Of a DNA stretch of 45,521 nt, positions 4,410 through 38,321 are shown piece after piece. How positions within the stretch are numbered: the stretch's first letter is position 1; every line of letters starts with the position of its first letter. The stretch lies in assembly GCA_902768715.1 (NCBI GenBank), contig CACXMH010000011.1:1-45521 (forward strand), given 5' to 3'. The notes under the pieces are model-generated. The model ran no database searches. It saw only the letters and a list, made by a program, of their open reading frames with translations, and was not told the origin of the DNA. The position numbers were made by a program, and so were the translations under genes. Source of the stretch: Fibrobacter succinogenes (GTDB taxonomy: Bacteria; Fibrobacterota; Fibrobacteria; Fibrobacterales; Fibrobacteraceae).

Positions 4410-4410
4410 A

Positions 4411-5157: not shown

Positions 5158-5432
5158 TGTTAGGTAGTAGGTTATAGGTTGTAGGGATTAGGATCTAGGG
5201 GTTAGGGCTGATGGAAACAAGAGGTTTTAATGTGAGATGTTGGGTGTGGGATGTGGGATTAGAAAAGTTTCGTGATTAGTGGTTAGGGGGAAGTATGGGG
5301 CTAAAGCCCCAACTGCTCGGCTCAATCACGCCAGACCGCGAGCGGTCTGTCGCGATACTCGCCTTATGCAGTTGTCCCCTGATTCGCACTGCGTAGCTCA
5401 CCACCCCTTCTTGCCGGAATCATAGTTAGGCT
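5158..5432. repeat. Repeat-filled gap: TAGGNNN heptamers, TGTGAGA heptamers and two hairpins
   Basis: From 5161 the sequence steps in 7s: TAGGTAG, TAGGTTA, TAGGTTG, TAGGGAT, TAGGATC, TAGGGGT. A second array at about 5230-5262 uses TGTGAGA, TGTTGGG, TGTGGGA, TGTGGGA. Stem-loops follow at 5297-5310 (GGGGCT/AGCCCC) and 5332-5349 (CAGACCGC/GCGGTCTG). I see no gene here. Confidence 0.6.
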
Positions 5433-6683: not shown

Positions 6684-6718
6684 GCTTGCTTTTTTGTATA
6701 GTTACTCTTATGAGCACT

Positions 6719-6724
6719 AATATA
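6719..6724 (-). promoter_or_regulatory. -10 element (TATATT) of the radical-SAM gene
   Basis: TATATT on the minus strand begins about 41 bases before the ATG at 6683 and lies just beyond the terminator hairpin at 6771-6800, as expected for a new transcription unit. No clear -35 is seen. Confidence 0.4.
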
Positions 6725-6770
6725 CATAAAACTGCACAAAAAAGCAATAGTTAATGTAATTTTTTCAAAA

Positions 6771-6800
6771 AAAAGCCCGCCCCAAACGGAGCGGACTTTT
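6771..6800 (-). terminator. Rho-independent terminator after the GH94 phosphorylase gene
   Basis: On the minus strand this is a 13-bp stem (AAAAGTCCGCTCC pairing with GGGGCGGGCTTTT, two G-U pairs) with loop GTTT and a run of eight T. It lies 85 bases past the phosphorylase stop and before the promoter of the next gene. Confidence 0.7.
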
Positions 6801-6885
6801 AATTTCAGGAAGATTCCCGTGATTCTATCGCCCTATCGCTATGCTCCAGGGCTCCAGAATGACAGCGGGGATGACAACTCTGAGA

Positions 6886-9396
6886 TTAGCCCAGGGTGAC
6901 GATAACCTTATGCACACCCTTGGTGAAGATCGGAGCCACGTCGGCGTCAATCTTCTTGCCATCGACGATCATCTCGGCGACACCCTTGCACACGTGCTTC
7001 GGGTTCTTCACTTCGATTTCGTAGGTAGCGCCGCGGAACTTGCGGGTCACCTTGAAGCCGTCCCACTTGGAGGGGATGCAGGGGTTGATAATCAGGCCCT
7101 TGAAGCTTGCGCGCACACCGATGATGAACTGCGTTGCAGCCTGGTAGGTCCAGGAGCTGGTTCCGGAGAGCCATGCGTTACGGCCCATACCGAACTGCTT
7201 GTGTTCGTCACCGAGAATGTTCTGCGGGTAGCAATAGGGTTCAGATTCGAACTCGTCCAGCTTGGTGTTCTTGGAAGCCGGGTTAATCTGGTTGTAATAC
7301 TGGAAAGCCTTGTCGCCACGGCCGAGAATGGTTTCGGCAATCATCACCCACGGGTTGGTGTGGAGGAAGATACCGCCGTTTTCCTTGGCTCCAGGAGGAT
7401 AGGTGGATATGCCACCCACGTTGGGGTCGAAGCCGCGGTAGCCCGGAGTGGAGCTCTTCACGCCGTTGGCGGTGTTCAGGAGCTTGTTCAGGCTGTCCAT
7501 GCCCTGCACAGCGCGTTCACCGGTAGCGATACCGGAAATCACGGACCAGGACTGGCTATTGCAGTAAATCTTGCCGTACTTGGCCTTGTTGGTACCGTAG
7601 GCGTTGCCCTGCTTGTCGAACCAGCGGACCCACCACTTGCCGTCCCAGGCGCTCTTGTTGAAAGCGGCCTTCACGTCTTCGTACCACTTCTTGTACATTT
7701 CCACGGACTTCTTGTCGCCGAGAGCTTCGCAGATGTCCATCATCTCGAGCAATGCCTTGGCGTAGAGGCCGGTGTTGAAAGAAGATTCTGCACCGAGAGG
7801 CAGGTTCATGCAGTCGTTCCAGTCGGCAAAGCCGAGGAGCGGAAGGCCATGCTTGCCCAGGTGAGTGCGTGTAAAGTTGAGGGAGCGCTTCAGGTGTTCA
7901 AGGACAGTGCCCTTTTCACGCTGGGCGCGCTTCTTGCCGGCTTCATAGAACGGGATGACTTCCTTGAGGAGGCTCATCTTGCCGGTTTCCTTGAGGTAGT
8001 TGGCCACCGTGAGCACAATCCACAGGTGGTCATCGCCGTACCAGTCTGCATAGGCAGGCTTGCCGTGTTCGTCGAGAACACCCTTCTTTTCGCGGGAGTC
8101 ACCGGCGTTGGCTTCGTTACCCGTATCCTCTTCCAAAGCGAGAGGAGCATACTGGTGCATGGCGTTACCTTCGGGGCGCTGCACAGAGAGCAAATTCTTG
8201 GCAAGGACCAGAGCTTCTTCGGGCATGTGGCTCATAACACCCATCAAGTCCTGGCTGGAGTCACGGTAACCAATACCGCGGCTGGTGCCGTAGCCCAGCT
8301 GGTACAGGGATAGGTAGCGGCTCCAGTTCTTGGTGGTGTGGCACTGACGGGGGTTGTGGACGTTCACCATAGAGTTGAACGCTGCATCCGGAGTCTGTAC
8401 CTGGATAGTAGAAAGGTAGTTCTGCCAGAACTTGGCCAGTTCGTCAAAGGCCTTGTCCACGTTCTTCAAATCACGATACTTGGCGATAGCCTTGGCGGCA
8501 ACCTTCAGGCTCTGTTCCTGACCCAGCTGGGTGCAGGTGCGGAAGGTCTTGCCTGCGGCAATCTTGCCGGCGTGGATCATGAGGGCGGCAATGTTGTCGC
8601 CACGGTCGCATTCGCTGTTGGAAAGTTCCTTGTTGGCAAGGCTGAGCGGAGCGGCCCAGGAGCCCATTTCGTTTGCGCCCAGGAACACGCGGCGGTCACC
8701 GTCGAAGCTACCGACCTTGCAGTTGGCGGTCACGTAGTTCACGGCGAAATCACGCTTCATGTAGGCGTACTGTTCCAGCACCACATGGCCATCCTTTTCC
8801 CAGTGGCCCTTGAGGGTCATGGTCTGGGGAACCCAGTCGGCGTTGGTGAGCTGCTTTTCAGCTTCGAAATGGCTGAATTCATAGACCGGGACAATATCCA
8901 CTTCCTTGGCGGTCTTGTCGAGGTTGGTGACCTGGATGTCCTGGAGGAGGGTGTTGGATCCGGTGGGAACGAAAATCGTCACCTGCGTACGGAGGCCTTC
9001 GCATTCGGCGATCCAGCGCATGTAAGAAAGACCCACGTGGCATTCCCACTTCTTCATCTTGGTGAGGGTCGGGACCACGAACGGGGAGAACACGGTGTAA
9101 CCCTTGGCGTTCTTCACACGGATATAGATGGTGCTGGCCTTGAAGTCAGAGCAGGGCATCTGGGCGATGTACTTGGTGATACGGTTCAGGGCCGGGTCGC
9201 CCTTGCAAACCAGGGTACCGCCGGTGGTATCCACGATACCGCCGAAGTTCAAAGTACCGACGTAGTTGCACCACTTGATCGGGGTTGCCGGGGTGGTGAG
9301 CACGTATTCTTTCTTGGCGTCATCGAAGTAGCCGTACTTGGCGGCCGGGGCCTTGGAGGCGACCTTCTTGACACTCTTCTTCTGTTTTGTAGCCAT
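6886..9396 (-). CDS. GH94 cellobiose-phosphorylase-type enzyme
   Basis: The product has 836 residues, close to the usual size for GH94 disaccharide phosphorylases. It has an N-terminal beta-sandwich domain, then an (alpha/alpha)6 barrel with SSQDLMGVMSHMPEEAL, GDDHLWIVLTVANYL, and the DWND motif at residues 525-528 that holds the family's general acid. HTNPWVMIAETILGRG near residue 680 is also typical. The expected reaction is phosphorolysis of cellobiose (or a close beta-glucoside) to glucose 1-phosphate and glucose in the cytoplasm, saving ATP. Chitobiose or laminaribiose specificity cannot be excluded by eye. The N-terminus has a short Lys-rich extension. GGAGATAC precedes the ATG. A PadR regulator gene lies upstream on the same strand. 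Confidence 0.88.
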   Translation of the reverse strand: MATKQKKSVKKVASKAPAAKYGYFDDAKKEYVLTTPATPIKWCNYVGTLNFGGIVDTTGGTLVCKGDPALNRITKYIAQMPCSDFKASTIYIRVKNAKGYTVFSPFVVPTLTKMKKWECHVGLSYMRWIAECEGLRTQVTIFVPTGSNTLLQDIQVTNLDKTAKEVDIVPVYEFSHFEAEKQLTNADWVPQTMTLKGHWEKDGHVVLEQYAYMKRDFAVNYVTANCKVGSFDGDRRVFLGANEMGSWAAPLSLANKELSNSECDRGDNIAALMIHAGKIAAGKTFRTCTQLGQEQSLKVAAKAIAKYRDLKNVDKAFDELAKFWQNYLSTIQVQTPDAAFNSMVNVHNPRQCHTTKNWSRYLSLYQLGYGTSRGIGYRDSSQDLMGVMSHMPEEALVLAKNLLSVQRPEGNAMHQYAPLALEEDTGNEANAGDSREKKGVLDEHGKPAYADWYGDDHLWIVLTVANYLKETGKMSLLKEVIPFYEAGKKRAQREKGTVLEHLKRSLNFTRTHLGKHGLPLLGFADWNDCMNLPLGAESSFNTGLYAKALLEMMDICEALGDKKSVEMYKKWYEDVKAAFNKSAWDGKWWVRWFDKQGNAYGTNKAKYGKIYCNSQSWSVISGIATGERAVQGMDSLNKLLNTANGVKSSTPGYRGFDPNVGGISTYPPGAKENGGIFLHTNPWVMIAETILGRGDKAFQYYNQINPASKNTKLDEFESEPYCYPQNILGDEHKQFGMGRNAWLSGTSSWTYQAATQFIIGVRASFKGLIINPCIPSKWDGFKVTRKFRGATYEIEVKNPKHVCKGVAEMIVDGKKIDADVAPIFTKGVHKVIVTLG

Positions 9397-16812: not shown

Positions 16813-17623
16813 GCTTTTTGACATCATCGATGTCCGCATGGCGGATATTCTGGACATCCTCATCATGTCCATTATCCTGTACTATGTGTTCCAGCTGTTC
16901 CGCGGGACACGTGCCGTCCAGATGATCATCGGCGGCATGTTCCTGGTGGTGGCCTGGTTCCTTGCCCAGTGGTGGGAACTCCACACCCTTCTCTGGCTTT
17001 TGACCAACCTTGCCACCCTGGGCATTATCGCCATCGTGATTCTTTTCCAGCCCGAAATCCGAAGCGCCCTGACCCGAATAGGCCAGACCGTCAGCCGGGC
17101 CAGCTGGCAATCCATCTTTTTCCACGCCAGCGGACTTGACGACGTGACCAAGTCCATCACTACTGCCGTACAGGACCTGGCCAAGAACCATTTCGGAGCC
17201 CTGATTGTCCTTGAAAAACGCGTTGGCCTGCGTAACTACGAAGAGACCGGCGAAATCTTGAACGCCCGCATCAGCTCCCGACTGCTCCGCTCCCTGTTTT
17301 TCCCCAATTCCGCCCTCCACGACGGTGCCGTGCTCCTGAACAGCAAGTGCATTGTGGCCGCGGGCTGTATCTTGCCCATGCCCACCGCAAACGCAGGCGG
17401 CGACACCGGCTACGGCATGCGTCACCGTGCCGCCCACGCCCTCGCCTCCGAATGCGACGCCCTAGTCATCGTGGTCTCCGAAGAAACGGGCTACATTTCC
17501 ATCGCCTACCGTTCCAGCCTGCGCCGCAACCTGAGCGTCAAGGAACTGGAAACCGAAATCAAGCGCCACTGGGGCGAACTGTTCAAGGACGAACGGGTCG
17601 AGGAGAAGGAAGGCAGTGGTTAG
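16799..17623 (+). CDS. cdaA: Membrane diadenylate cyclase (CdaA-type)
   Basis: The product has 274 residues. Three hydrophobic helices fill about residues 15-85 (ILIMSIILYYVFQLF, MIIGGMFLVVAWFLAQWW, LLTNLATLGIIAIVILFQPE). A DisA_N catalytic domain follows with the DGA motif (LHDGAVLL, about residue 175) and RHRAA (about 208), both needed to join two ATP into cyclic di-AMP. The arrangement matches CdaA rather than DisA. Its start lies inside folP, with GGAGG about 11 bases before the ATG, so translation is coupled. In Firmicutes cdaA sits with cdaR and glmM; here it sits with tilS-ftsH-folP. Confidence 0.93.
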   Translation: MVLFKLFDIIDVRMADILDILIMSIILYYVFQLFRGTRAVQMIIGGMFLVVAWFLAQWWELHTLLWLLTNLATLGIIAIVILFQPEIRSALTRIGQTVSRASWQSIFFHASGLDDVTKSITTAVQDLAKNHFGALIVLEKRVGLRNYEETGEILNARISSRLLRSLFFPNSALHDGAVLLNSKCIVAAGCILPMPTANAGGDTGYGMRHRAAHALASECDALVIVVSEETGYISIAYRSSLRRNLSVKELETEIKRHWGELFKDERVEEKEGSG

Positions 17624-17716
17624 GTTTTAGGTTTTAGGTTTTAGGTTGTAGGTATTAGGTTTTAGGTTGTAGGTATTAGGGGTTAGGATCTAGGGGCTAG
17701 GATCTAGGATTTAGTA
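17622..17716 (+). repeat. Long TTTTAGG-type heptamer array
   Basis: Fourteen AGG triplets in succession are each separated by exactly four bases (TTTT, TTGT, TATT, GGTT, ATCT, GGCT), giving a 7-base period over about 95 bases. It is the longest uninterrupted example in the window and begins at the cdaA stop. Confidence 0.85.
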
Positions 17717-24727: not shown

Positions 24728-24734
24728 TATGCAT

Positions 24735-26528
24735 ATGAGTGAATATACGCATAAATCCAGCATCGGACCGGTGGTCCCACAGGATTTCGTCAAGGACTAT
24801 GGCGAAACGGGTTTTGTGCTGGAAAACGGAAAGACGCTGCCTGCGCTGAATATCCGTTACGAGACTTACGGCAAGCTGAATGCCGCCGCCGACAACGCGG
24901 TGTGGGTCTGCTCGCCCCTGACCGCCGACGCACACGCCGCCGGCTGGTACACCGAAACCGACCGCAAACCCGGCTGGTGGGACGAACTTATCGGACCGGG
25001 CAAGGCTATCGACACGGACCGCTTTTTTGTGGTCTGCAGCAACATTCTGGGCGGGTGCAAGGGCACAACAGGCCCCGCGACCATCAACCCCCGCACGGGT
25101 AAGCCCTACGGGAGCACCTTCCCCATCATCACCATCGGCGACATGGTGCATGCCCAAAAGGAACTGGCCGACGGGCTAGGCATCAAGGAATTCTACTGCG
25201 TCCTGGGCGGCTCCATGGGCGGTTTCCAGGCCATGAAATGGGCCATCTACTACCCTGAACAGGTGAAGCGGGTGGTGATTATCGCCAGCTCGCCCCGGTT
25301 CTCCAGCCAGGCGCTGGGTTTCGAAGTGGTGGCCCGTGACGTGATTACCCAGGACCCAGACTTTAACGGCGGGGACTATTACGACAAGGCGAACAAGCCC
25401 GACATCGGTCTTGCCAACGCCCGCAAGCTGGCCCACATCACCTACCTGAGCGCCATCGGCATGGAACAGAAGTTCAAGCGTTCCCAGGAACAGGAGAACC
25501 GTAACCACGCCGTCACCTACAGCACGCCCTTCGACCTGGACCTGCCTATCGAAAGCTACCTGCGCTACCAGGGCAAAAAGTTCGTGGACCGCTTTGACGC
25601 CAACAGCTATTTGCACATCGCCCACGCCACCGACGCCTTTGACCTGGAAACGGAATACGGAAGCATCGAGAATGCCTTTAAGGATATCGGCGCCGAGGTG
25701 CTGAACGTGAACCTCTCCACCGACTGGCTGTTCCCGCCCCACGAGAGCCGCCGCATCACCAGCGCCCTGTTGAACGTGGGCAAGAAGGTGACGAGCCTGG
25801 AACTGGACACCCAGTTCGGACACGACGGGTTCCTCATCGAAGTGGGCGAACTGGGAAAAGCCGTGGGCCGATTCCTGGATTCAAAGATCATTCCTCAGCA
25901 GGGAACACAGGCCGTGCCCGTGTTCCACGAAGAAAGCGACTTTAAGCTGCTGGGAAAGCTGGTGAAAGAGGGTAGCCACGTGCTGGACCTGGGCTGCGGA
26001 AGCGGCGACCTGCTGGACTACCTTATCCAGAAGAAGAACGTCACCGGTTTCGGCATCGAGAAGAACATCACGGGAATCCTGGACTGCCTCGAGAAGGACG
26101 TGCAGGTTATCCAGCGGGACCTGGACGACAAGGGCATCTCGGACCTGAAGGACGGAAGCTTCGACTACGCCATCATCAACCGCACGATTCAAGAGATCCG
26201 CGACCCGGTGGCACTGTTGAACGAACTGCTGCGGGTGGCGAAGAAGGCCATTGTCACCTTCCCTAACTTCGGGCACTGGGCCACCCGCGGAAGCCTGATG
26301 CTCCATGGTCGCATGCCCAAGTCCAAGGAACTGCCCTACGAGTGGTACGACACGCCCAACATCCGCCTTTTGACGGTGAAGGACTTCTACACCCTCTGCA
26401 AAAAAGAAGGGTTCAAGATAGAGAACATCAACTTCCAGAGCGAACACCTGGCAAGCAAGGTCCTCTCAGCTCTTGGGCTCAAGAACTTCGGCACCGAACA
26501 CGTAATCGCGACGATTAGTAAATTATAA
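24735..26528 (+). CDS. metXW: Fused homoserine O-acetyltransferase and MetW methyltransferase-like protein
   Basis: The product has 597 residues. Residues about 1-385 are MetX, an alpha/beta hydrolase that makes O-acetylhomoserine (or O-succinylhomoserine) for methionine synthesis. The nucleophile Ser160 is in GGSMGG, the Asp in STDWLFPPHESR, and the His in TQFGHDGFL. Residues about 395-597 are MetW: LDLGCGSGDLLDYL (AdoMet-type loop), FDYAIINRTIQEIRDP, VTFPNFGHWATRGSL and LPYEWYDTPNIRL. In Proteobacteria metX and metW are usually neighbours; here they form one chain. MetW is needed for MetX activity in some bacteria. I prefer the ATG at 24735 over 24729 because TATATT lies 7 bases before it. 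Confidence 0.93.
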   Translation: MSEYTHKSSIGPVVPQDFVKDYGETGFVLENGKTLPALNIRYETYGKLNAAADNAVWVCSPLTADAHAAGWYTETDRKPGWWDELIGPGKAIDTDRFFVVCSNILGGCKGTTGPATINPRTGKPYGSTFPIITIGDMVHAQKELADGLGIKEFYCVLGGSMGGFQAMKWAIYYPEQVKRVVIIASSPRFSSQALGFEVVARDVITQDPDFNGGDYYDKANKPDIGLANARKLAHITYLSAIGMEQKFKRSQEQENRNHAVTYSTPFDLDLPIESYLRYQGKKFVDRFDANSYLHIAHATDAFDLETEYGSIENAFKDIGAEVLNVNLSTDWLFPPHESRRITSALLNVGKKVTSLELDTQFGHDGFLIEVGELGKAVGRFLDSKIIPQQGTQAVPVFHEESDFKLLGKLVKEGSHVLDLGCGSGDLLDYLIQKKNVTGFGIEKNITGILDCLEKDVQVIQRDLDDKGISDLKDGSFDYAIINRTIQEIRDPVALLNELLRVAKKAIVTFPNFGHWATRGSLMLHGRMPKSKELPYEWYDTPNIRLLTVKDFYTLCKKEGFKIENINFQSEHLASKVLSALGLKNFGTEHVIATISKL

Positions 26529-26655
26529 GGTAACAGGTATTAGGTGTTAGGTATTAGGATTATAATCGCGGCTATGCCGCCTTATATAAGGACGCACGAA
26601 GTGCGTGATTCTTTACCTATCCCCTGTGACCTAAAACCTATAACCTAAAAAGCTT
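26529..26655. repeat. Composite palindromic element, copy 1
   Basis: The left arm has heptamers AGGTAAC, AGGTATT, AGGTGTT, AGGTATT. The core has two hairpins: GCGGC-TAT-GCCGC (26568-26580) and ACGCAC-GAA-GTGCGT (26592-26606). The right arm is CCTA-rich (ACCTATC...ACCTAAAACCTATAACC). The same plan recurs at 31782-31905 and 42428-42560. TATAAC at the end of this copy could act as a -10 for yicC. Confidence 0.8.
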
Positions 26656-27725: not shown

Positions 27726-29390
27726 TTAAGCCTGGTGCTTCTTGAACCACTTGATGAGCCCGTTGGTAGAGCTGTCGTGGTTCAGTTCGGCGTCGGCCTT
27801 GGCGAGTTCCGGAAGAATCTTCTTCGCGAGCTGCTTGCCGAGTTCAACACCCCACTGGTCGTAGCTGTTGATGTTCCAGATAACGCCCTGCACAAAAATC
27901 TTGTGCTCGTACATGGCGATGAGGGCGCCGAGGGTTTCCGGAGAAACGTAGTCCATCATGATGGAGTTGGTGGGCTTGTTGCCTTCGAACACCTTGTGCG
28001 GGGCGAGGAATGCGATTTCTTCTTCGCTCTTGCCGTCCTTGCGGAGTTCTTCCTGGGCCTGAGCGAGGGTCTTGCCGTTCATCAGGGCTTCGGGTTGTGC
28101 AAAGAAGTTGGAGAGCAGCTTCTGGTGGTGGTCCCCCACCTTGTTGTGGCTGTTTGCCGGGGCGATGAAGTCGCAAGGAATCATCTTGGTGCCCTGGTGG
28201 ATCAGCTGGTAGAAGGCGTGCTGGCCGTTGGTACCCGGTTCGCCCCAGAGGATCGGACCTGTCTGGTAATCGACGCGGGCAGAGTTACGATCGACGGTCT
28301 TGCCGTTGGATTCCATATCGGCCTGCTGGAAGTAGGCGGCCAGGCGGTGCAGGTACTGGTCGTACGGGAGCATGGCGTAGCTCGATGCACCGAAGAAGTT
28401 GTTGTACCACACGCCGATGAGGGCGAGGATCACCGGCATGTTCTTGTCGGCCGGGGCGGTCTTGAAGTGCTGATCCATTTCGTAGGCACCCTGGTGGAGC
28501 TTCATGTAGTTCTCGAAGCCGATGCGGAGCGCGATGGAAAGGCCGATGGCAGACCACAGAGAGTAGCGGCCGCCGACCCAGTTCCAGAATTCGAACATGT
28601 TGGCGGTGTCGATCCCGAAGGCGGCGACGGCCTCGGTGTTGGTGGAAAGCGCCACAAAGTGCTTGGCGATGGACTTTTCGTCGCCATTGAAAGCCTTGAG
28701 GACTGCAGCCTTGGCAGTTTCGGCGTTAGTCATAGTTTCAAGAGTGGTGAAAGTCTTGGAAGCGACAATGAAGAGGGTCTCCTCGATGTTCACCTTCTTG
28801 AGGGTTTCGGCCATGTGAGTGCCGTCGATGTTAGAAACGAAATAGACTTCCGGGGAGTATTCGCCGGCAATGGGCTTGTCGGCATAGGGCTTCAAAGCTT
28901 CGGTCACCATCACCGGGCCCAGGTCGGAGCCGCCGATACCGATGTTCACCACGTACTTGATGGCCTTGCCGGTGTGGCCCTTCCACTTACCGCTACGGAC
29001 CAGATGGGTAAAGTCTTCCATGTGCTTGAGCACGGCGCGGACTTCGGGCATCACGTCTTTGCCATCGACGCAGATGGCGTCGTTACCCTTGTAACGCAGA
29101 GCGGTGTGGAGCACGGCGCGCTTTTCGGTGGTGTTAATCTTTTCGCCGCCGAAGAACTTCGCACGCATGTCTTCGAAGTTGGCAGACTTCAGGAGGTCCT
29201 GGAGCTTAGCCATGGTCTCGTCGGTGATGATGTTCTTGGAGTAGTCCAAGAAGAGTCCGCAGGCTTCCAGGCTGAACTTCTCGGCACGGGCCGGGTCCTT
29301 AGCAAAGAGTTCCTTCATGTGCCAAGTCTTGGCGACTTCGGCGTGGGCCTCGAGGGCCTTCCATTCCTGAGAATCAGTCAGTTTCGACAT
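27726..29390 (-). CDS. pgi: Glucose-6-phosphate isomerase
   Basis: The product has 554 residues, typical for the long bacterial form. It interconverts glucose 6-phosphate and fructose 6-phosphate. Family motifs are [74 protein letters not shown] and [19 protein letters not shown]; the C-terminal [13 protein letters not shown] is the second signature. AAAGGA lies about 8 bases before the ATG, with a -10 TATATT at 29434-29439. Together with the GH94 phosphorylase and pfp in this window it would carry cellulose-derived sugar into glycolysis. Confidence 0.97.
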
Positions 29391-29433
29391 AGATTAATCC
29401 TTTCCGCAAGCGCGGTTATTTGTTGCGGGGGTA

Positions 29434-29439
29434 AATATA
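29434..29439 (-). promoter_or_regulatory. -10 element (TATATT) of pgi
   Basis: TATATT lies about 43 bases before the ATG at 29390. The leader carries an AAAGGA ribosome-binding site. Confidence 0.4.
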
Positions 29440-29574
29440 GAAAAATGAAAAAAATATGCCAAAACAGGTCAAAAATTGGTATCTTTACAGCACGCCATCG
29501 ACGACCCGGGAAAACCTTCCGACAGCCGCCAGACGAGCACCGGGCAACCGGCAAGCTTTTATAAAGGCAAAACG

Positions 29575-30270
29575 ATGGATATAAAGATATTACAGCAGCC
29601 CGACGACGTCACCTGCGGGCCCACCAGCCTTCAGGCGGTCTATAACCACCTGGGCTACAAAATTTCCCTGAAGCAGCTCATCTCCGAAATCGAATTTTTG
29701 GAAGACGGAGGAACCCTGGGCGTGTTCCTTGGCATCGACGCGCTCAAGCGCGGGTTCAAGGTCACGCTACATTCCTACAACCTGACGCTCCTGGACCCCA
29801 CCTGGAGTACCCTCAGCATGCCCGAACTGAAGGCGAAGCTGGAACTTTTGCACAAGGCAAAGCACGCCCCCAAGCTCCGCAAGGCAATAGAGGCGTACAT
29901 CCGCTTTATCGATTTGGGTGGAAAGGTTGCTTTTGAAGATTTGCGGGCAGCCATGTTCGAGAAGTACTTCAAGAAGGGAGTTCCCGTCCTGTGTGGGCTT
30001 TCAGCCACCTACCTGTACCGCAGCATGCGGGAATTCACCAGCAAAGACGACAAGTCCGTATTCGACGACATCCACGGCGAGCCCATGGGACATTTCGTGG
30101 TGGTGTACGGCATCGACGACAAGAAACAGTTCATGGTGGCCGACCCCGACGGCACCAATCCGCTGCACAAGACGCCTTACTACAAGGTGGACAAGTTCCG
30201 TCTGCTCCACAGCATACTGCTGGGCGTCATGACCTACGACGGGAACGTGCTGGTGATAGAGAAGAAATAA
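29575..30270 (+). CDS. C39-like papain-fold cysteine peptidase
   Basis: The product has 231 residues from the ATG at 29575, which follows AAAGG; a longer frame begins at 29476 without family features. The N-terminus ILQQPDDVTCGPTSLQAVYNHLG is the C39-type motif with catalytic Cys and a nearby Gln. GHFVVVYGID supplies the His, and MVADPDG the Asp. No signal peptide or export domain is present, so it acts in the cytoplasm. It ends 3 bases before an ATP-grasp ligase gene, so the two are translationally linked. Likely roles are trimming or hydrolysis of a peptide or amide made by the ligases that follow, or acting as a transpeptidase. This is inferred from context. Confidence 0.85.
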   Translation: MDIKILQQPDDVTCGPTSLQAVYNHLGYKISLKQLISEIEFLEDGGTLGVFLGIDALKRGFKVTLHSYNLTLLDPTWSTLSMPELKAKLELLHKAKHAPKLRKAIEAYIRFIDLGGKVAFEDLRAAMFEKYFKKGVPVLCGLSATYLYRSMREFTSKDDKSVFDDIHGEPMGHFVVVYGIDDKKQFMVADPDGTNPLHKTPYYKVDKFRLLHSILLGVMTYDGNVLVIEKK

Positions 30271-30273
30271 ATC

Positions 30274-31779
30274 ATGAAGAAACTTATAGTCGTAAACAAT
30301 CCCAAGCACTGGAAATTACACGTTCCGGGCATCGACATCATTTCGGCCCAGGACTACCTGATTTCCAGCAAGTACACCAACGAGCGCAACCTGCGCGTAT
30401 TCAACCTTTGCCGCGATTACAACTACCAGAGCAAGGGCTATTACGTGTCGCTGTTGGCCGAAGCCCGCGGGCACAAGGTAATTCCCGGCGTCAAGAACAT
30501 GCGGGACTTCAAGGCTCCGGCGGTCATCAAGCATATCTCCGACGAAATCGACAAGCTAATCCAAAAGAGTTTCCACAAGCTGACCGGCACGGAATTCGTG
30601 CTTTCGATTTACTTCGGCCAGAACGTGAGCCCGCAATACCTGGAGCTTTCGCAGGAACTTTATCGTTTGTTCCAGGCACCGCTGCTTCGTGCGAAATTCG
30701 TGTTCAAGCAAAAGTGGTTTATCCAGAGCATTCGCCCGATTTGCGTGGACGAAATTCCCGAATCGCACATGGAATTTGTCGATAAATTCGCCCAGGAATA
30801 CTTCGAAAAGACCCGTTACGCCACCAGTAAAGAAGAAGACTACCTGTACGACTTGGGCATTCTCACAAACCCCGACGAAGTGGAGCCGCCGAGCAATGCG
30901 CAGGCCATCCAGAACTTTATCAAGGCCGCCGAAGAAACGGGATTCCGCGTGGAGATGATTACCAAGAAGGACTACCCGCGCGTTGGCGAATTTGACGCCA
31001 TCTTTATTCGCGAAACCACAAACGTGAACCACTACACTTACAGTTTCGCTCGCCGCGCACAATCGCAGGGCATTGCAGTGATTGACGATCCCGACAGCAT
31101 TCTGCGCTGCTCCAACAAGGTGTACCTGCAAGAACTGATGCAGGCGGCGAAGATTCATTCGCCGAAGACGATTATCGCCCATGCCGAAAACCGTCACACC
31201 CTGGCCAAGGAAATAGGTTTCCCGATGGTGATCAAGTCGCCGGATTCCAGCTTCTCGATGGGCGTGAAGAAAGCCACCAACAAAGAAGAACTGGAACAGA
31301 TTCTCGACGAAATGTTCCAGCACAGCGACCTGCTGATTGCCCAGGAATTCACTCCGACGGAATTCGACTGGCGCGTGGGTGTGCTGGACGGCAAGCCGCT
31401 TTACGCCTGCAAATATCACATGGCCAAAGGCCACTGGCAAATTTACAACTGGGAAAGCAACGACAAGCAGAGCGAAGAATTTTCGGGCAAGTGTGAAAGC
31501 ATTCCTATCGAGATGGTGCCCCACGGAATCGTAAAAACCGCCCTCAAGATTTGCAGCCTCATCGGCAACGGACTTTACGGCGTAGATTTGAAGGAATGGC
31601 ACGGTCACCCGATTGTGATTGAAGTGAACGACAACCCGAGTATCGACGCGGGAATTGAAGACGGTGTGGGCAAGAGCAAGGTTTACCTTGCCATCATGAG
31701 GTCTTTGCGCCACCGCATCGAAGAACGCATGAACGCAGCTCAACATAAGCTGCAAATGCACGAGAGAGAATGGTTTTAA
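30274..31779 (+). CDS. RimK-like ATP-grasp ligase with RLAN-type N-terminal domain
   Basis: The product has 501 residues. The N-terminal 150 residues (IISAQDYLISSKYTNERNLRVFNLCRDYNYQSKGYYVSLLAE in sequence around residues 22-63) match the RLAN domain found before some RimK-type ligases. A linker with NPDEVEPPSN follows. The ATP-grasp domain spans about 270-480: DDPDSILRCSNKVYLQELM, FPMVIKSPDSSFSMGV, AQEFTPTEFDWRVGVLDGKPLYACKYHM and the metal-binding IVIEVNDNPSID. It would join an amino acid (often Glu) to a carboxylate through an acyl phosphate. The substrate is unknown. The neighbours are a C39-like peptidase and a GCS2 ligase. Confidence 0.9.
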   Translation: MKKLIVVNNPKHWKLHVPGIDIISAQDYLISSKYTNERNLRVFNLCRDYNYQSKGYYVSLLAEARGHKVIPGVKNMRDFKAPAVIKHISDEIDKLIQKSFHKLTGTEFVLSIYFGQNVSPQYLELSQELYRLFQAPLLRAKFVFKQKWFIQSIRPICVDEIPESHMEFVDKFAQEYFEKTRYATSKEEDYLYDLGILTNPDEVEPPSNAQAIQNFIKAAEETGFRVEMITKKDYPRVGEFDAIFIRETTNVNHYTYSFARRAQSQGIAVIDDPDSILRCSNKVYLQELMQAAKIHSPKTIIAHAENRHTLAKEIGFPMVIKSPDSSFSMGVKKATNKEELEQILDEMFQHSDLLIAQEFTPTEFDWRVGVLDGKPLYACKYHMAKGHWQIYNWESNDKQSEEFSGKCESIPIEMVPHGIVKTALKICSLIGNGLYGVDLKEWHGHPIVIEVNDNPSIDAGIEDGVGKSKVYLAIMRSLRHRIEERMNAAQHKLQMHEREWF

Positions 31780-31781
31780 CA

Positions 31782-31905
31782 GGTTACAGGTAGTATGTGT
31801 TAGGTATTAGGACAATAATCGCGGCTTCGCCGCCTCTTATAGATGTGCGAAGCACATGTAACTTTACCTACCACCTACAACCTAAAACCTACAACCTATT
31901 TTATT
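31782..31905. repeat. Composite palindromic element, copy 2
   Basis: The left arm is CAGGTTA, CAGGTAG, TATGTGT, TAGGTAT, TAGGACA. The core hairpins are GCGGC-TTC-GCCGC (31821-31833) and ATGTGC-GAA-GCACAT (31843-31857). The right arm is ACCTACC ACCTACA ACCTAAA ACCTACA ACCTATT. It lies inside the ligase cluster, between two genes on the same strand. Confidence 0.85.
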
Positions 31906-33138
31906 ATGACTAACTACAAACTTTGGCAACGTTACGGCATCGAGATGGAATACATGATCGTGGATCGTGATTCCTTGAATGTTCTCCCTCGCGCTGATGT
32001 ACCGCTTGGAAAAGACAAGAACGGCGAACAGCTCTCTGACGTGGAACACGGGCCGATTGGACTTTCCAACGAGCTGGTGAGCCATGTGCTGGAATTCAAG
32101 TGCGCACAGCCTGTCGATAGCCTCAAGCACTTGGGCAAGACCTTCCATCACGAAATCTTGAAGGCAAACGAATCGCTCAAGAGCATTAATGCCATGCTTT
32201 TGCCCACGGCGGCCCACCCCTTTATGGACCCCGCCGAGATGAAACTCTGGCCCTACGATTGCCTGGATATTTACGAGACTTACGACCGCATCTTTAACTG
32301 CAAGGGTCACGGCTGGGCAAACCTGCAATCCACCCATATCAATCTCTCCTTCAACGGTGACGAAGAATTCGGGAAACTTCATGCGGCTATTCGCGCCCTG
32401 TTGCCGCTGATCCCCGCCGTGGCAGCTTCTAGCCCGTTTTTGGACAGCAAGTACTGCGGATTCTTGGACGGACGAATTGAGACATACCGCCACAACCAGG
32501 AGAAAATTCCGAGCATTACGGGCAAGGTGATTCCCGAAGCGGTCTTTACCTACAAGGATTACGAAGAGCAGATTTTCAACCGCGTGAAGGCAGACATTGC
32601 GCCGTACGATCCGGAACATTTGCTGAATCATTTCTTCTTGAATAGCCGCGGGGCAATTGCACGTTTTGACCGCGGAGCCATCGAGATTCGACTCGTTGAC
32701 ATTCAGGAATGCCCGGACGCCGACATCGCCATTGCCGAATGGGAAATCGCCGTGTTGAAAGGTCTTGTGGAAGGTAGATTTGCGAATGAGTCGCAAATTC
32801 GCGCACTCGATACGGACGCCCTCGCAAAAATTCTGCTTGCCACGACACATTCCGCCGAAAAAACGGTGATAAACGACCAAGATTATCTGAAAATCTGGGG
32901 AATCAATGCCAGCGAAATCGCAGCCCAGGACTTGATTGTTAAAATCACCGAGAAGGCAAAGGACAAGATTTCCCAGCATTCTCAGGAACTGCTTCAAAAG
33001 ATGTTCAAGCGCGGAACCCTCGCCAGCGCCCTGGTAAAGAACGTCGGTGCAGACCCCGACCGCGACGATTTTGTATATGAATACGGCCGTCTCGCCCACT
33101 GCCTCGCAGAGAACAAGCTATACGGAACAGGGGAATAG
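31906..33138 (+). CDS. GCS2-type carboxylate-amine ligase (glutamate-cysteine ligase family 2)
   Basis: The product has 410 residues. The start at 31906 is chosen because upstream codons come from repeat sequence; no Shine-Dalgarno sequence is visible. GIEMEYMIVD near the N-terminus is the first metal-binding strand of the GCS2 fold, QSTHINLSF the next, and GAIARFDRGAIEIRLVDIQECPDADIAIAEW the C-terminal conserved segment. GCS2 enzymes are glutamine-synthetase-fold ligases that form gamma-glutamyl or other amide bonds with ATP. Being next to a RimK-like ligase, a C39-like peptidase and an N-formylglutamate-amidohydrolase-like gene suggests a special metabolite or peptide modification rather than ordinary glutathione synthesis. 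Confidence 0.87.
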   Translation: MTNYKLWQRYGIEMEYMIVDRDSLNVLPRADVPLGKDKNGEQLSDVEHGPIGLSNELVSHVLEFKCAQPVDSLKHLGKTFHHEILKANESLKSINAMLLPTAAHPFMDPAEMKLWPYDCLDIYETYDRIFNCKGHGWANLQSTHINLSFNGDEEFGKLHAAIRALLPLIPAVAASSPFLDSKYCGFLDGRIETYRHNQEKIPSITGKVIPEAVFTYKDYEEQIFNRVKADIAPYDPEHLLNHFFLNSRGAIARFDRGAIEIRLVDIQECPDADIAIAEWEIAVLKGLVEGRFANESQIRALDTDALAKILLATTHSAEKTVINDQDYLKIWGINASEIAAQDLIVKITEKAKDKISQHSQELLQKMFKRGTLASALVKNVGADPDRDDFVYEYGRLAHCLAENKLYGTGE

Positions 33139-33149
33139 CTCCAAACTTG

Positions 33150-33241
33150 TCATGCCCGTCCCGGAATATGTCCGGGATAAACTGGCGGGCATCTCCTTTC
33201 AATTTTTCAAGCAAAAGGAGGTCCCCGACCAAGTCGGGGAA
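33150..33241. repeat. GTCATGCCCG...CGGGCATC palindrome plus TCCCCGAC/GTCGGGGA hairpin
   Basis: The first element (33150-33193) has complementary ends around an inner TCCCGGA/TCCGGGA palindrome. The second is a stem-loop near 33223-33241. Both lie between the GCS2 gene and the amidohydrolase gene. Confidence 0.6.
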
Positions 33242-33263
33242 GACATCAACAAAACAATCCTTT

Positions 33264-33269
33264 TATATT
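33264..33269 (+). promoter_or_regulatory. -10 element (TATATT) of the amidohydrolase-like gene, leaderless
   Basis: TATATT is followed by 6 bases and then the ATG at 33276. No Shine-Dalgarno sequence is present. The last gene of the ligase cluster may therefore have its own start of transcription. Confidence 0.5.
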
Positions 33270-33275
33270 TAAAAC

Positions 33276-33953
33276 ATGGCTAAAGCAATACTCATCCTCA
33301 CTTGCGAGCATGCGAGCAACAAACTGCCCGCTGCGTTCAAGAGCGCCGTTCCTGCCGATGTTCTGGAGACCCACCGTGCCTACGATATAGGGGCAGTACA
33401 GGTATTCCGCAAGTTGGTGAAATTTGCAAAGCCCGAATTTTATTGCGAAGGTAAATTTTCACGCCTGTTCGTGGACCTGAACCGCACTATCACGAACAAG
33501 AGCGCTTTCAGCGAATATTACGAAGCGCTCGAAGCCCGCGACAAGGCCGCCGCCGAAAAAGCGAAAGCCCAGGCCACCGCCTACTGGAACGAATATCGCG
33601 CTACCATTGAAAAATTCGTGGAAACCGCTCTTAAATCAAAAACACGTGTTGCAAAATCTGAGCCAGAAATCATCCACCTAGGCATCCACAGCTTTACACC
33701 GGAACTAAACGGCAAAGTCCGCAACACCGACATCGGGATTCTCTACGATCCGAACCGTCCGCAAGAGCGAGCCTACGCAAACGTCATCAAGGCAGAAATC
33801 AAGCGGCTCTACCCCGCCATGAAAGTCCGTTTCAACTACCCGTACAAGGGCACTTCTGACGGGCTCACCACCACGCTCCGCAAAAAGTTCGGCCCGGGTT
33901 ACGTTGGGATCGAGATTGAGATAAATCAGAAGTTATTGAGCTATGAACGATGA
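33276..33953 (+). CDS. N-formylglutamate amidohydrolase-like protein
   Basis: The product has 225 residues. LTCEHASNKLPAAF near the N-terminus matches the zinc-binding start of the family. AYDIGAVQVFRKL, FSRLFVDLNRT, GIHSFTPELNGKVRNTDIGILYDPN and the C-terminal GYVGIEIEINQKLL follow in the usual order, including the conserved His, Asp and Arg. The family hydrolyses N-formylglutamate in histidine breakdown, but no hut genes are near. The gene instead ends a cluster of peptide-ligase genes, so hydrolysis of an acylated or amide intermediate made by them is the better inference. Confidence 0.88.
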   Translation: MAKAILILTCEHASNKLPAAFKSAVPADVLETHRAYDIGAVQVFRKLVKFAKPEFYCEGKFSRLFVDLNRTITNKSAFSEYYEALEARDKAAAEKAKAQATAYWNEYRATIEKFVETALKSKTRVAKSEPEIIHLGIHSFTPELNGKVRNTDIGILYDPNRPQERAYANVIKAEIKRLYPAMKVRFNYPYKGTSDGLTTTLRKKFGPGYVGIEIEINQKLLSYER

Positions 33954-34002
33954 GGTCGGCGCAAAGCGCCTTTGAGCTCGTTTCACTTTGAGTCTTCTAA
34001 AC

Positions 34003-34036
34003 AAAAAAGTTCTAGGATTATCCCTAAAACTTTTTT
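34003..34036. terminator. Bidirectional terminator between the amidohydrolase-like gene and ddh
   Basis: AAAAAAGTTCTAGG pairs with CCTAAAACTTTTTT (one internal mismatch) around a short loop. The T-run on one side and A-run on the other fit both converging genes. Flanking hairpins GGCGC-AAA-GCGCC (about 33957-33970) and TCAGCC-GAA-GGCTGA (about 34045-34060) are repeat elements. Confidence 0.75.
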
Positions 34037-34107
34037 ACTCATAGTCAGCCGAAGGCTGACGCGCTCACACCTCAAAGGCGTCCTTTGGGGCGCCGTGCTC
34101 ATACCTA

Positions 34108-35091
34108 TTACAAGCAGTGAGCCCTTAATTCTTCGTCGCTGAGCGTGCTGAGGTATGCAGGCGGCACGTCGAGGACGGTCTTGCAACCGGTCACTCCGTT
34201 AGCCTTCATGCGCAGCGCTGCACGGGCGTAAGCCACGAGAACGCTCGTCGTGAATTCCGGGTTGGAATCGAGCTTCAGGCTGTATTCGATCACGTGCGTG
34301 TGTTCCTTGTTCATGCCGGTCTTGCCGGTACGGATCACGAAACCGCCGTGAGCGAGCCCGCTGTGGTTCTTGTTGAATTCTTCTTCGCTGATGAAGTTGA
34401 CGGTCGTGTCGTATTCGTCGAAGTAGTTCGGCATCGTCTTGATGGCGTTTTCGATGTAGGCCTTGTCGGCACCTTCTTCGGCAACCACGTAAACGAGACG
34501 CGTGTGCTTCTGGCGGGTGGTGAGTTCCGGCATGGAACCGCTACGCACGGCTTCGAGAGCCGCTTCCACCGGGCAGGTGTACTGCTTCGCGTTCTTCACG
34601 CCCTTGATGCGGCGGACAGCGTCGCTGTGGCCCTGGCTAACGCCCTTGCCCCAGAACGTGTAGTCCTTGCCTTCCGGAAGGATGGACTGGGCGTACACGC
34701 GGTTCAGGCTGAACATGCCCGGGTCCCAACCCACAGAAATCATCGCGATGTTGCCGGCAGACTTGGCAGCAGCGTCAACGGCAGCGAAGTGCTGCGGAAT
34801 CTTGGCGTGGGTGTCGAAGGAATCGATCACGTTGAACATGGCGGCGTACTTCGGGGTGAGCACCGGCAGGTCGGTAGCGGAACCGCCACAGATGATGAGC
34901 AGGTCCACCTTGCCTTTCCAAGCTTCCATTTCAGAGACGTTCAGCACCGGAACGCCCGCCGTCTGGATCTTGACCGTCGAGGGGTCACGACGGGTGAAAA
35001 CAGCGACGAGTTCCATATCCGGAGCCTGCTTCACGGCGCATTCCACACCGCGACCCAGGTTACCGTAACCGAGAATAGCAATCTTTGCCAT
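34108..35091 (-). CDS. ddh: meso-Diaminopimelate D-dehydrogenase
   Basis: The product has 327 residues, the family length. It makes meso-diaminopimelate from tetrahydrodipicolinate with NADPH and ammonia, in one step, for lysine and peptidoglycan synthesis. The Rossmann start AILGYGNLGRGVECAV is followed by VFTRRDPSTV, CGGSATDLPVLTP, ISVGWDPGMFSLNRVY, FWGKGVSQGHSDAVRRIKGV and the C-terminal TSSV-like region with NPEFTTSVLVAYARAA. AAGGAT lies 7-8 bases before the ATG; a -10 TATATT is at 35126-35131. Ddh has a patchy distribution, so this gene may have been acquired or may act beside another DAP route. Confidence 0.95.
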   Translation of the reverse strand: MAKIAILGYGNLGRGVECAVKQAPDMELVAVFTRRDPSTVKIQTAGVPVLNVSEMEAWKGKVDLLIICGGSATDLPVLTPKYAAMFNVIDSFDTHAKIPQHFAAVDAAAKSAGNIAMISVGWDPGMFSLNRVYAQSILPEGKDYTFWGKGVSQGHSDAVRRIKGVKNAKQYTCPVEAALEAVRSGSMPELTTRQKHTRLVYVVAEEGADKAYIENAIKTMPNYFDEYDTTVNFISEEEFNKNHSGLAHGGFVIRTGKTGMNKEHTHVIEYSLKLDSNPEFTTSVLVAYARAALRMKANGVTGCKTVLDVPPAYLSTLSDEELRAHCL

Positions 35092-35227: not shown

Positions 35228-35287
35228 AGACCCCACCTCTTTTTCAAAAAGCAACAATATTTGTCACTTTATGCCATTTCAAGATTG

Positions 35288-35293
35288 TATATT
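35288..35293 (+). promoter_or_regulatory. -10 element (TGTATATT) of the restriction-modification gene
   Basis: The extended -10 ends 28 bases before the ATG at 35322. It lies inside the upstream open frame, which argues that the earlier in-frame start at 35271 is not used. Confidence 0.4.
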
Positions 35294-35321
35294 TGAAAGT
35301 AACGCAAAATTGGAGATTTTG

Positions 35322-38321
35322 ATGAAGGCAACCGAACAGCAGACAGCGGCCAAAAAATTTGTCAAAGAGTGGTCTGGCAAGGGCTACGAAAAGGGCGAAT
35401 GCCAGAAATTCTGGATTGATTTGCTTTGCAACGTGTTCGGCGTGCAAGATTTCGCAAGTTTTATCCTTTTCGAGGAACAGGTCAAGGAATATTTCGTTTC
35501 AAAAGAAACGAAGCAATCTAAATCCATAACCAACTTCATTGACGCATGTATTCCCTCGACTCATGTAATAATCGAACAGAAATCGAGCAGCAAGGACTTA
35601 CGTGAGCTTATCAAACAGTCGAACGGTTCGTTTCTGACTCCATTCCAACAAGCAAAGAACTATTCAGCAAACTTGCCCTATTCTAAACGTCCTCGTTGGA
35701 TTGTTACTTGCAATTTTGATGAGTTCCTAATTTACGATATGGAGCGTCCTGATGGAGAACCACAACAAATTTTTCTGAAGGACTTGCCCAAAGAACTTTA
35801 CAGACTACAATTTCTGGTCGATTCCAAAAGCGAACACATTCGCCGCGAAGAAGAAATCTCCCTGAAAGCAGGCGAACTCGTAGGAAAACTCTACGATGCT
35901 CTATACAAGGAATACATCAATCCAGACGAAAAAAGCCTGCGCAGCCTAAACATTCTCTGTGTCCGCATCGTATTCTGTCTTTACGCCGAAGACGCCGGAC
36001 TTTTCAATACAAAAACCGCCTTTGAAGACTACATCCAGAGTTTCAAGATAGAGAATGTTCGTCGTGGTCTTATCGACCTGTTCAAGGCCCTCGACACAAA
36101 ACTCGAAGATCGTGATAAATACGATACGAAGCTAAACCCATTTCCTTATGTAAATGGCGGGCTTTTCGCATACGAAGACATCGAAATTCCAAATTTCTCG
36201 CAAGAAATCGTCGACGTCATCGTGAACCATTGCGCACCATTTGACTGGAGTGAAATCAGCCCAACCATTTTCGGCGCAGTTTTTGAAAGCACCTTGAATC
36301 CCGAGACCCGTCGTAAGCGCGGAATGCACTACACTAGCATCGAGAACATACACAAGATCATTGACCCACTCTTCTTTGATGAATTGCGGGAAGAATTCGA
36401 TGGAATTGCGCCATCTACAGCCAAAGCACTCTCTAAGCCCCAGCGTCAAAAGCTGCTTGATTTGCAAGACAAACTCAGTTCCTTGAAATTTCTCGACCCC
36501 GCCTGTGGGTCGGGCAACTTCCTTACCGAAACATACACAAGCCTCCGCAAATTGGAAAATCAGATCCTCAAGTTGCTCATGGCCGACAAAATTGTGATGG
36601 GCGAAATCGTGAACCCTGTAAAGGTAAGCATCACGCAGTTTTACGGAATCGAAATCAACGACTTTGCCGTAAACGTGGCAAAGACCGCCCTCTGGATTGC
36701 AGAATCGCAAATGCTCAAGGAAACGGAATCCATTGTCCAACAAGACATCGATTTTCTCCCCCTAACCTCGAACGCCACCATTATCGAGGGAAATGCCCTA
36801 CGCATGGACTGGACTAGGTTGGACTCTGGCGCTTCCGAATCCGAAGCACTAGTTGCGGACAAGTTGAACATTATCCAAGTTGACGATATTGATTCCCTAA
36901 CAGTAAACGACATTCGACGCCCATACAAACAGAAGAAGAACGAAATCACGGTTATCACACGCGAGGTGGAATACAAGGATTCGAAGGATTTCGATTACAG
37001 TTCCATTACAAGCATGGCGAAACGATCCGTCTGCAACTACGATTTTATCATGGGAAACCCGCCATTTATAGGCGCAAGGTACATGAGCAAAGCTCAAAAG
37101 GACGATCTAGTTTCCGTATTCGGGAAAAAATGGCAAGGCGTGGGCGATCTCGATTTTGTTTGCGCTTGGTACAAAAAAGCTGCACCGCTATTGCAAAATG
37201 GGCACACAAAAGCAGCTTTCGTTTCTACAAATTCAATTGTTCAAGGTGGATCCGTTAGCAACTTATGGAAACCACTCTTTGAAAAAGACAACCTACATAT
37301 TGATTTTGCGTACCGCACTTTCCATTGGGCATCCGAATCAAATTCTATGGCTCATGTTCATTGTGTCATTATCGGATGTTCTGTCGGAGAGTCCGCCTCC
37401 CCTAAACAAATTTACAACTTCAATGGGGAAGCTACCATTGCAAAAAACATCAACGGTTATTTGCTGGACGCGCCGAATTCGTTCATCGAAAAGCGCTCCA
37501 AACCTATTTGTGACGTGCCCCAAATTTGCCTAGGCGGTCAACCGATTGATGACGGAAATCTGATTTTAACGGCAGAAGAAAAAGACGAAATTGTCAAAAA
37601 AGATTCGCAGATAGCAAAATTCATTCGCCATTACATGATGGGAAAGGACTTTATAGATAGGAAGCCCCGTTTCTGTCTTTGGTTGCAAGGAGCAAATCCC
37701 GCTGAATTTCGCAAAAGTCGCGAAATAATGAAGCGAATCGAAAAGGTTAGAGAATTCCGTCTCGCCAGTGACCGTTCAAGTACGCTACGTGCCGCAGAAA
37801 TGCCTTATCTATTTGGAGCTCCTTTTGAATGTGAAAGTGACTATATCGCCATTCCAAAAGTTTCCTCTGAAAAAAGACCATACATTCCTATTGATTATCT
37901 TTCTCATGAGATTATTCCGGGCGACAAGCTTTTTGTTATGCAAAGAGCATCACTGTATCATTTTGGCGTGCTAACCTCCAAAATCCACATGGCATGGGTG
38001 CGAACCGTTTCTGGAAGATTAAAAAGCGATTACAGCTATTCAAACACAATCGTCTATAACAACTTCCCATGGAGCAATCCAAACGACACTCAAAAAGCTA
38101 AAATAGAAGCAACCGCACAAGCGATTCTCGATATTCGCGCAAAATATCCTGACGCAAGCCTAGCGGACCTTTACGACGATCTGACAATGCCCGTCGATCT
38201 TCGCAAGGCTCACATAGAAAATGACCATGCCGTCATGGAATCCTACGGGTTCGGCTCTAAAATGACCGAAGACGAAATCGTGGCAGAACTATTTAAGATG
38301 TACGAGAAACTTACGAGGTAA
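35322..38321 (+). CDS. MmeI-type (Type IIL) single-chain restriction-modification enzyme
   Basis: The product has 999 residues. The start follows GGAGAT at 6 bases. The order of domains matches MmeI: an N-terminal nuclease with Asp74 and Glu85-Gln-Lys87 (PD-ExK pattern in STHVIIEQKS), a helical spacer with GMHYTSIENIHKIIDPLF, a gamma-class adenine methyltransferase with motif I LDPACGSGNF (391-400) and motif IV NPPF (579-582), then a target-recognition region (WASESNSMAHVHCVIIG, FCLWLQGANPAEFRKS, FPWSNPNDTQKAKIEATAQAIL). Such enzymes methylate one strand and cut about 20 bases away. Catalytic residues look intact. The gene is visibly more A+T-rich than its neighbours and stands alone, which suggests horizontal transfer. 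Confidence 0.92.
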   Translation: MKATEQQTAAKKFVKEWSGKGYEKGECQKFWIDLLCNVFGVQDFASFILFEEQVKEYFVSKETKQSKSITNFIDACIPSTHVIIEQKSSSKDLRELIKQSNGSFLTPFQQAKNYSANLPYSKRPRWIVTCNFDEFLIYDMERPDGEPQQIFLKDLPKELYRLQFLVDSKSEHIRREEEISLKAGELVGKLYDALYKEYINPDEKSLRSLNILCVRIVFCLYAEDAGLFNTKTAFEDYIQSFKIENVRRGLIDLFKALDTKLEDRDKYDTKLNPFPYVNGGLFAYEDIEIPNFSQEIVDVIVNHCAPFDWSEISPTIFGAVFESTLNPETRRKRGMHYTSIENIHKIIDPLFFDELREEFDGIAPSTAKALSKPQRQKLLDLQDKLSSLKFLDPACGSGNFLTETYTSLRKLENQILKLLMADKIVMGEIVNPVKVSITQFYGIEINDFAVNVAKTALWIAESQMLKETESIVQQDIDFLPLTSNATIIEGNALRMDWTRLDSGASESEALVADKLNIIQVDDIDSLTVNDIRRPYKQKKNEITVITREVEYKDSKDFDYSSITSMAKRSVCNYDFIMGNPPFIGARYMSKAQKDDLVSVFGKKWQGVGDLDFVCAWYKKAAPLLQNGHTKAAFVSTNSIVQGGSVSNLWKPLFEKDNLHIDFAYRTFHWASESNSMAHVHCVIIGCSVGESASPKQIYNFNGEATIAKNINGYLLDAPNSFIEKRSKPICDVPQICLGGQPIDDGNLILTAEEKDEIVKKDSQIAKFIRHYMMGKDFIDRKPRFCLWLQGANPAEFRKSREIMKRIEKVREFRLASDRSSTLRAAEMPYLFGAPFECESDYIAIPKVSSEKRPYIPIDYLSHEIIPGDKLFVMQRASLYHFGVLTSKIHMAWVRTVSGRLKSDYSYSNTIVYNNFPWSNPNDTQKAKIEATAQAILDIRAKYPDASLADLYDDLTMPVDLRKAHIENDHAVMESYGFGSKMTEDEIVAELFKMYEKLTR

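Follow-up and report, generated by a model that had tools for sequence, protein, structure and literature searches.

The window, i.e. the whole stretch of 45,521 nucleotides analysed here, belongs to a 2.84 Mb genome, 95% complete, of a relative of Fibrobacter. Four consecutive genes lie on its forward strand, with a repeat between the two ligase genes:

29575-30270, forward strand: C39-like papain-fold cysteine hydrolase, 231 aa (Pfam Peptidase_C39_2, 1.4e-10)
30274-31779, forward strand: RLAN and RimK-type ATP-grasp carboxylate-amine ligase, 501 aa (Pfam RLAN, 1.2e-47; RimK, 9.2e-12)
31780-31905: spacer separating the two ligase genes and occupied by an (ACCTAMA)n hairpin repeat that is found genome-wide and elsewhere is not in the module
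31906-33138, forward strand: GCS2-type gamma-glutamyl ligase, 410 aa (Pfam GCS2, 7.2e-17)
33276-33953, forward strand: FGase-like amidohydrolase, 225 aa (Pfam FGase, 1.2e-22)

The Pfam matches of all four proteins exceed the curated cut-offs and the RLAN ligase gene starts 3 bases after the C39-like gene, which bears out the families, strand and spacing given in a preliminary description of this DNA. The GCS2 open reading frame covers 31843-33138; its conserved start is the ATG at 31906, an in-frame upstream start at 31843 being possible. GCS2 and RLAN genes occur once each in the host genome, both in this operon. Flanking genes are on the opposite strand: upstream a gene that resembles phosphoglucose isomerase, judging by its translation, and downstream the gene for diaminopimelate dehydrogenase. 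A search for RNA elements at 29300-34200 gave no Rfam match.

Compared with other loci, the gaps of 126 bases between RLAN and GCS2 and of 137 bases between GCS2 and FGase are atypical. In the first, the (ACCTAMA)n heptamer and opposing AGGT repeats form a long intergenic hairpin (31866-31898, z -4.1); further repeat sites lie at 5162-5186, 17622-17674 and 26629-26646. A genome-wide count of similar motifs gives 194, and the reversed control 0, so that the repeat is apparently an element dispersed through the intergenic DNA of the host. Two other frames of the window were noted by eye. The 1016 aa protein encoded at 35271-38321, in lower-GC DNA near the operon, resembles a restriction/methyltransferase-type enzyme with an N6 methyltransferase motif NPPF, and is possibly a horizontally acquired defence gene. 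At 24729-26528, a single frame seems to fuse a MetX-like homoserine acyltransferase to a MetW-like methyltransferase domain.

The active-site residues (nucleotide-binding, metal-binding and catalytic) are intact and conserved in all four proteins. Q8, C14, H173 and D190 of the C39-like protein are invariant across 33 homologues, and K282, K321, D438, E450 and N452 of the RLAN ligase across 48. The same holds for the G-x-E-x-E, HP, H-x-N and E-x-R-x-x-D residues of GCS2 (40 homologues) and for E11, H12, D37, H134, H138, E213 and E215 of the FGase-like protein (34 homologues).

By its arrangement, RLAN followed by an ATP-grasp domain with nucleotide and Mg ligands, the 501-residue protein belongs to the RLAN RimK-like ATP-grasp family (PF14401 and PF08443); the GCS2 fold (PF04107) is indicated by the family score and by conserved residues common to YbdK. 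Narrower assignments fail. As a RimK S6 glutamate ligase, the window enzyme scores 78.7 against a cut-off of 143 bits (TIGR00768) and 29.3 against 331 (PRK10446), and the GCS2 protein reaches 25.9 of 249 bits as a glutathione GshA (gshA_cyano) and 38.9 of 176 for the YbdK subfamily. A C39 bacteriocin processor would need an attached ABC transporter; the window protein stands alone with its 231 residues, and no transporter is found among the recurrent neighbours. No NCBIfam model matches the FGase-like protein as a HutG, and urocanase, the single hut marker searched genome-wide, is absent. Similarly, glutathione synthetase (PF02955, GSH-S_ATP; positive in 9 of 14 controls) has no match in this 95% complete genome, and neither has the bacillithiol marker BshC. 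The preliminary description had reported no hut genes and no glutathione synthetase nearby, and this extends to one marker each across the genome: neither histidine breakdown nor the plain synthesis of glutathione or bacillithiol is therefore likely.

The structure model of the C39-like protein (pLDDT 93.6) has three tied matches: Z 16.0 over 134 residues with C39 peptidase domains, Z 15.9 over 155 with Alr0975 and Z 15.7 with the pseudomurein endoisopeptidase PeiR. Such matches suggest a reaction without proving it, C39 peptidases scoring the same as Alr0975. The latter is a phytochelatin-synthase-like enzyme that converts glutathione to gamma-glutamylcysteine and glycine (PMC12065762). The C39-like fold and the Cys-His-Asp triad would fit a phytochelatin synthase, in which a papain-fold domain with these residues forms a gamma-Glu-Cys acyl-enzyme, but they are tied with C39 peptidases, and there is no Pfam phytochelatin match. 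Residues ~190-485 of the RLAN ligase, its ATP-grasp half, match LysX, ArgX and RimK (Z 26-28), residues 1-180 forming the RLAN domain outside it. For the FGase-like protein, the nearest solved structure is Atu2144 (2odf, E 6e-34), deposited as a hypothetical protein.

The two ligases go together in the phylum. Among 168 Fibrobacterota genomes, RLAN is present in 92 and this type of GCS2 in 93; 90 genomes have both, 5 only one and 73 neither, so that presence and absence agree in 163 (Fisher 3e-41, the related genomes not being independent). G002 and G103 are two genomes with RLAN and no GCS2. In the loci that we fetched, the order C39-RLAN-GCS2-FGase is kept across Fibrobacterota families at 36-80% identity. 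The adjacent C39 gene is missing from some genomes of the same genus, four of which carry an intact copy 25-120 kb away.

A single scan beyond Fibrobacterota returned 80 loci (46-94% identity) in Bacteroidota, Ignavibacteriota, Balneolota, Planctomycetota, Verrucomicrobiota, Pseudomonadota, Thermodesulfobacteriota, Myxococcota, Spirochaetota, Nitrospirota, Acidobacteriota, Omnitrophota, Sumerlaeota and others; the same four-gene order recurs in about 16 phyla. At 64 of the 71 loci that could be assessed, GCS2 lies next to RLAN on its downstream side; C39 is the upstream neighbour in 44 of 78, and FGase comes after the ligase pair in 45 of 67. Junctions in other phyla are tight, with median gaps of -4 to 2.5 bases and many overlapping start and stop codons, the RLAN-GCS2 junction usually overlapping. 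Pairwise locus distances of RLAN, GCS2 and C39 correlate at 0.52-0.72, above all of 500 permutations, as expected for a unit inherited together.

The four genes are therefore an ancient operon and no chance neighbourhood. Its core is the ligase pair RLAN and GCS2; the hydrolases are optional, C39 being absent from the Flavobacteriaceae genomes tested and FGase from many loci. It had been proposed that the ligases build a product that the two hydrolases trim: the functional unit stands and a design of ligases plus hydrolases fits, but C39 can be lost or displaced and FGase is often missing.

Annotated neighbours of the operon are unrelated. When all ORFs of at least 50 aa around the 80 loci were clustered, no fifth gene or precursor peptide emerged beyond closely related species: only the four families recurred, with no transporter among the recurrent neighbours. 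The lack of a precursor peptide and a transporter reported for the window thus extends to these loci, and the search for a short conserved peptide gene in relatives came back negative for ORFs of this size. In Salegentibacter and Gramella (L080, L082, L091, L122), the operon has as its neighbour upstream of RLAN a divergent gene for an M19 membrane dipeptidase, which is possibly linked to the product of the operon.

In some lineages GCS2 is replaced by a GNAT. The four-gene operon is present at 6 of the 20 RLAN loci from Gammaproteobacteria and an adjacent GNAT at the other 14 (on the opposite strand in 2), with none having both; GCS2 of this type is absent from all 14 GNAT-layout genomes and present in all 6 others. 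In 8 of 9 Pfam-tested loci of the 14, the GNAT is fused to DUF3335, a C39-like domain that keeps the Q, C, H and D of the window C39 protein and is homologous to it (hhalign 97%, 8e-11). GNAT layouts are also found in Bacteroidales/Verrucomicrobia and Nevskiaceae, and the RLAN tree requires at least three switches between GCS2 and GNAT, in whichever direction. Genomes G181-G183 (loci L139, L106, L140) have RLAN with a neighbouring GNAT and no GCS2 anywhere; several further genomes where RLAN stands without GCS2 have none elsewhere either. One doubtful exception to exclusivity at the locus level is L096, a GCS2 locus with a weak GNAT-like match (37 bits) 2 kb upstream. L107 has no adjacent partner and a GNAT-like gene 2.3 kb upstream. 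In G002 (locus L038), a GNAT gene lies 1.7 kb from RLAN on the other strand (4274-4765 and 6435-7901), which may be a further swap or chance.

Both GCS2 and GNAT convert a free amino group to an amide. In function they are probably equivalent, each masking an amino group before another residue is attached by the RLAN ligase. That one can stand in for the other beside this ligase suggests an RLAN enzyme that requires its substrate to be amino-capped. The hydrolases sort accordingly in the non-redundant loci: FGase occurs with GCS2 in 27 of 45 and with GNAT in 0 of 13. As C39 accompanies RLAN in both layouts and FGase only GCS2, there would be one hydrolase per ligase. On the simplest reading, drawn from few GNAT loci and related genomes, C39 would serve the RLAN bond and FGase the GCS2 product.

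We now propose a pathway, to which we give about an even chance: the operon would be self-sufficient, both producing and recycling a small amino-capped peptide, likely a gamma-glutamyl one. The substrates, the order of steps and a free small-molecule product are what we infer. GCS2 would spend ATP on an amide bond between the glutamate gamma-carboxyl and the amino group of either an amino acid or an amine. The RLAN ATP-grasp enzyme, to judge by its fold and invariant residues, would then link, again with ATP, the free carboxyl of this capped intermediate and the amine of one more residue, which is the type of reaction carried out by RimK, LysX and GshB. Going by which hydrolase follows which ligase, the C39-like enzyme may reverse or edit the RLAN bond via an acyl-enzyme, comparable to the splitting of glutathione by Alr0975, and the FGase-like enzyme may act on the GCS2 product. 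More tentatively, and with rather less than even confidence, we extend this to a capped peptide of wide conservation, serving as a cofactor, protectant or signal, which the RLAN ligases of many phyla would make in two versions, gamma-glutamyl by GCS2 and acyl by GNAT, with separate recycling hydrolases for the two.

The acceptor could instead be a protein, to which the ligases would add glutamate or a short peptide that the two hydrolases remove, as RimK and RimB do on ribosomal protein S6. RimK, LysX and ArgX, to which the ATP-grasp half comes closest, have protein carboxyls as their substrates. RimI acetylates a protein, and since the GNATs of the alternative layout score just under its cut-off, a protein target is possible. 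Still, the S6-RimK models are far below cut-off for the window ligase, GCS2 enzymes of known function normally act on small molecules, and no constant target gene is found at the loci, which favours a small-molecule acceptor. We regard protein tagging as rather unlikely.

Less probable still is a new glutathione-like thiol, a special case of the capped peptide in which GCS2 makes gamma-glutamylcysteine, RLAN adds the third residue and C39 acts as a phytochelatin synthase. The enzyme folds are those of GshA and GshB, the C39 model matches Alr0975, and the host has neither a glutathione synthetase nor a BshC match. Nothing points to cysteine, however, no thiol-redox gene is constant among the neighbours, and a gamma-glutamyl thiol does not sit easily with a GNAT in the place of GCS2.

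A LysW-like carrier, loaded with an amino acid by the ligases and relieved of it by a hydrolase for amino-acid biosynthesis, seems improbable to a greater degree. LysX and ArgX are the best structure matches of the ATP-grasp half, and some genomes have lysine or arginine genes in the vicinity (34108-35091 in the window, L102 and the Pontibacter loci), but the loci share no small carrier gene and the neighbouring biosynthetic genes vary between lineages. Finally, a chance neighbourhood of four genes that each serve an ordinary role of their own, such as plain glutathione synthesis, histidine breakdown or bacteriocin processing, can hardly be maintained: each family has members with such roles, but the gene order kept over about 16 phyla already refutes chance, the ligases co-occur as described and no glutathione synthetase or urocanase was found in the host.

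A conserved pathway lacking a known product that reaches from rumen Fibrobacter to many marine bacteria, over about 16 phyla altogether, marks a clear gap in bacterial metabolism. The GCS2/GNAT swap makes the product question directly testable, as the compounds would differ only in their cap.

The amidoligase survey of Iyer et al. 2009 reportedly named the RLAN domain and predicted linked ligase-peptidase systems, and probably touched on this one. Our literature search, which did not cover that survey, found no paper describing the operon. We do not claim the discovery of the neighbourhood itself; new here are the breadth of the operon, its ligase core, the GCS2/GNAT swap and the pairing of the hydrolases. 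Of the known systems, glutathione synthesis (GCS2-type GshA and ATP-grasp GshB) taken together with Alr0975 resembles it in combining a GCS2-fold ligase, an ATP-grasp ligase and a papain-fold hydrolase, and in the scheme of making and splitting a gamma-glutamyl tripeptide. The operon differs in its subfamilies (all NCBIfam gshA and gshB models are far below cut-off), in the extra RLAN domain, in FGase and in the GNAT that can replace GCS2. RimK/RimB and RloABC likewise couple a RimK-type ATP-grasp ligase to a peptidase, there an aspartic one (PMC12239564); the operon has the RLAN domain, a cysteine peptidase in place of the retropepsin and a GCS2 partner. The synthesis of NAGGN unites GNAT capping, ligation and a peptidase gene in Ngg (GNAT-ATP-grasp), AsnO and the peptidase (PMC8070244), and in this it resembles the GNAT layout. 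There, however, TIGR03103 is far below its cut-off and matches only the GNAT part (18-31 of 569 bits for the related GNATs), and no AsnO was seen. For the window ligase this model is not among the best 25 matches, and the window operon has GCS2 where NAGGN synthesis has a GNAT.
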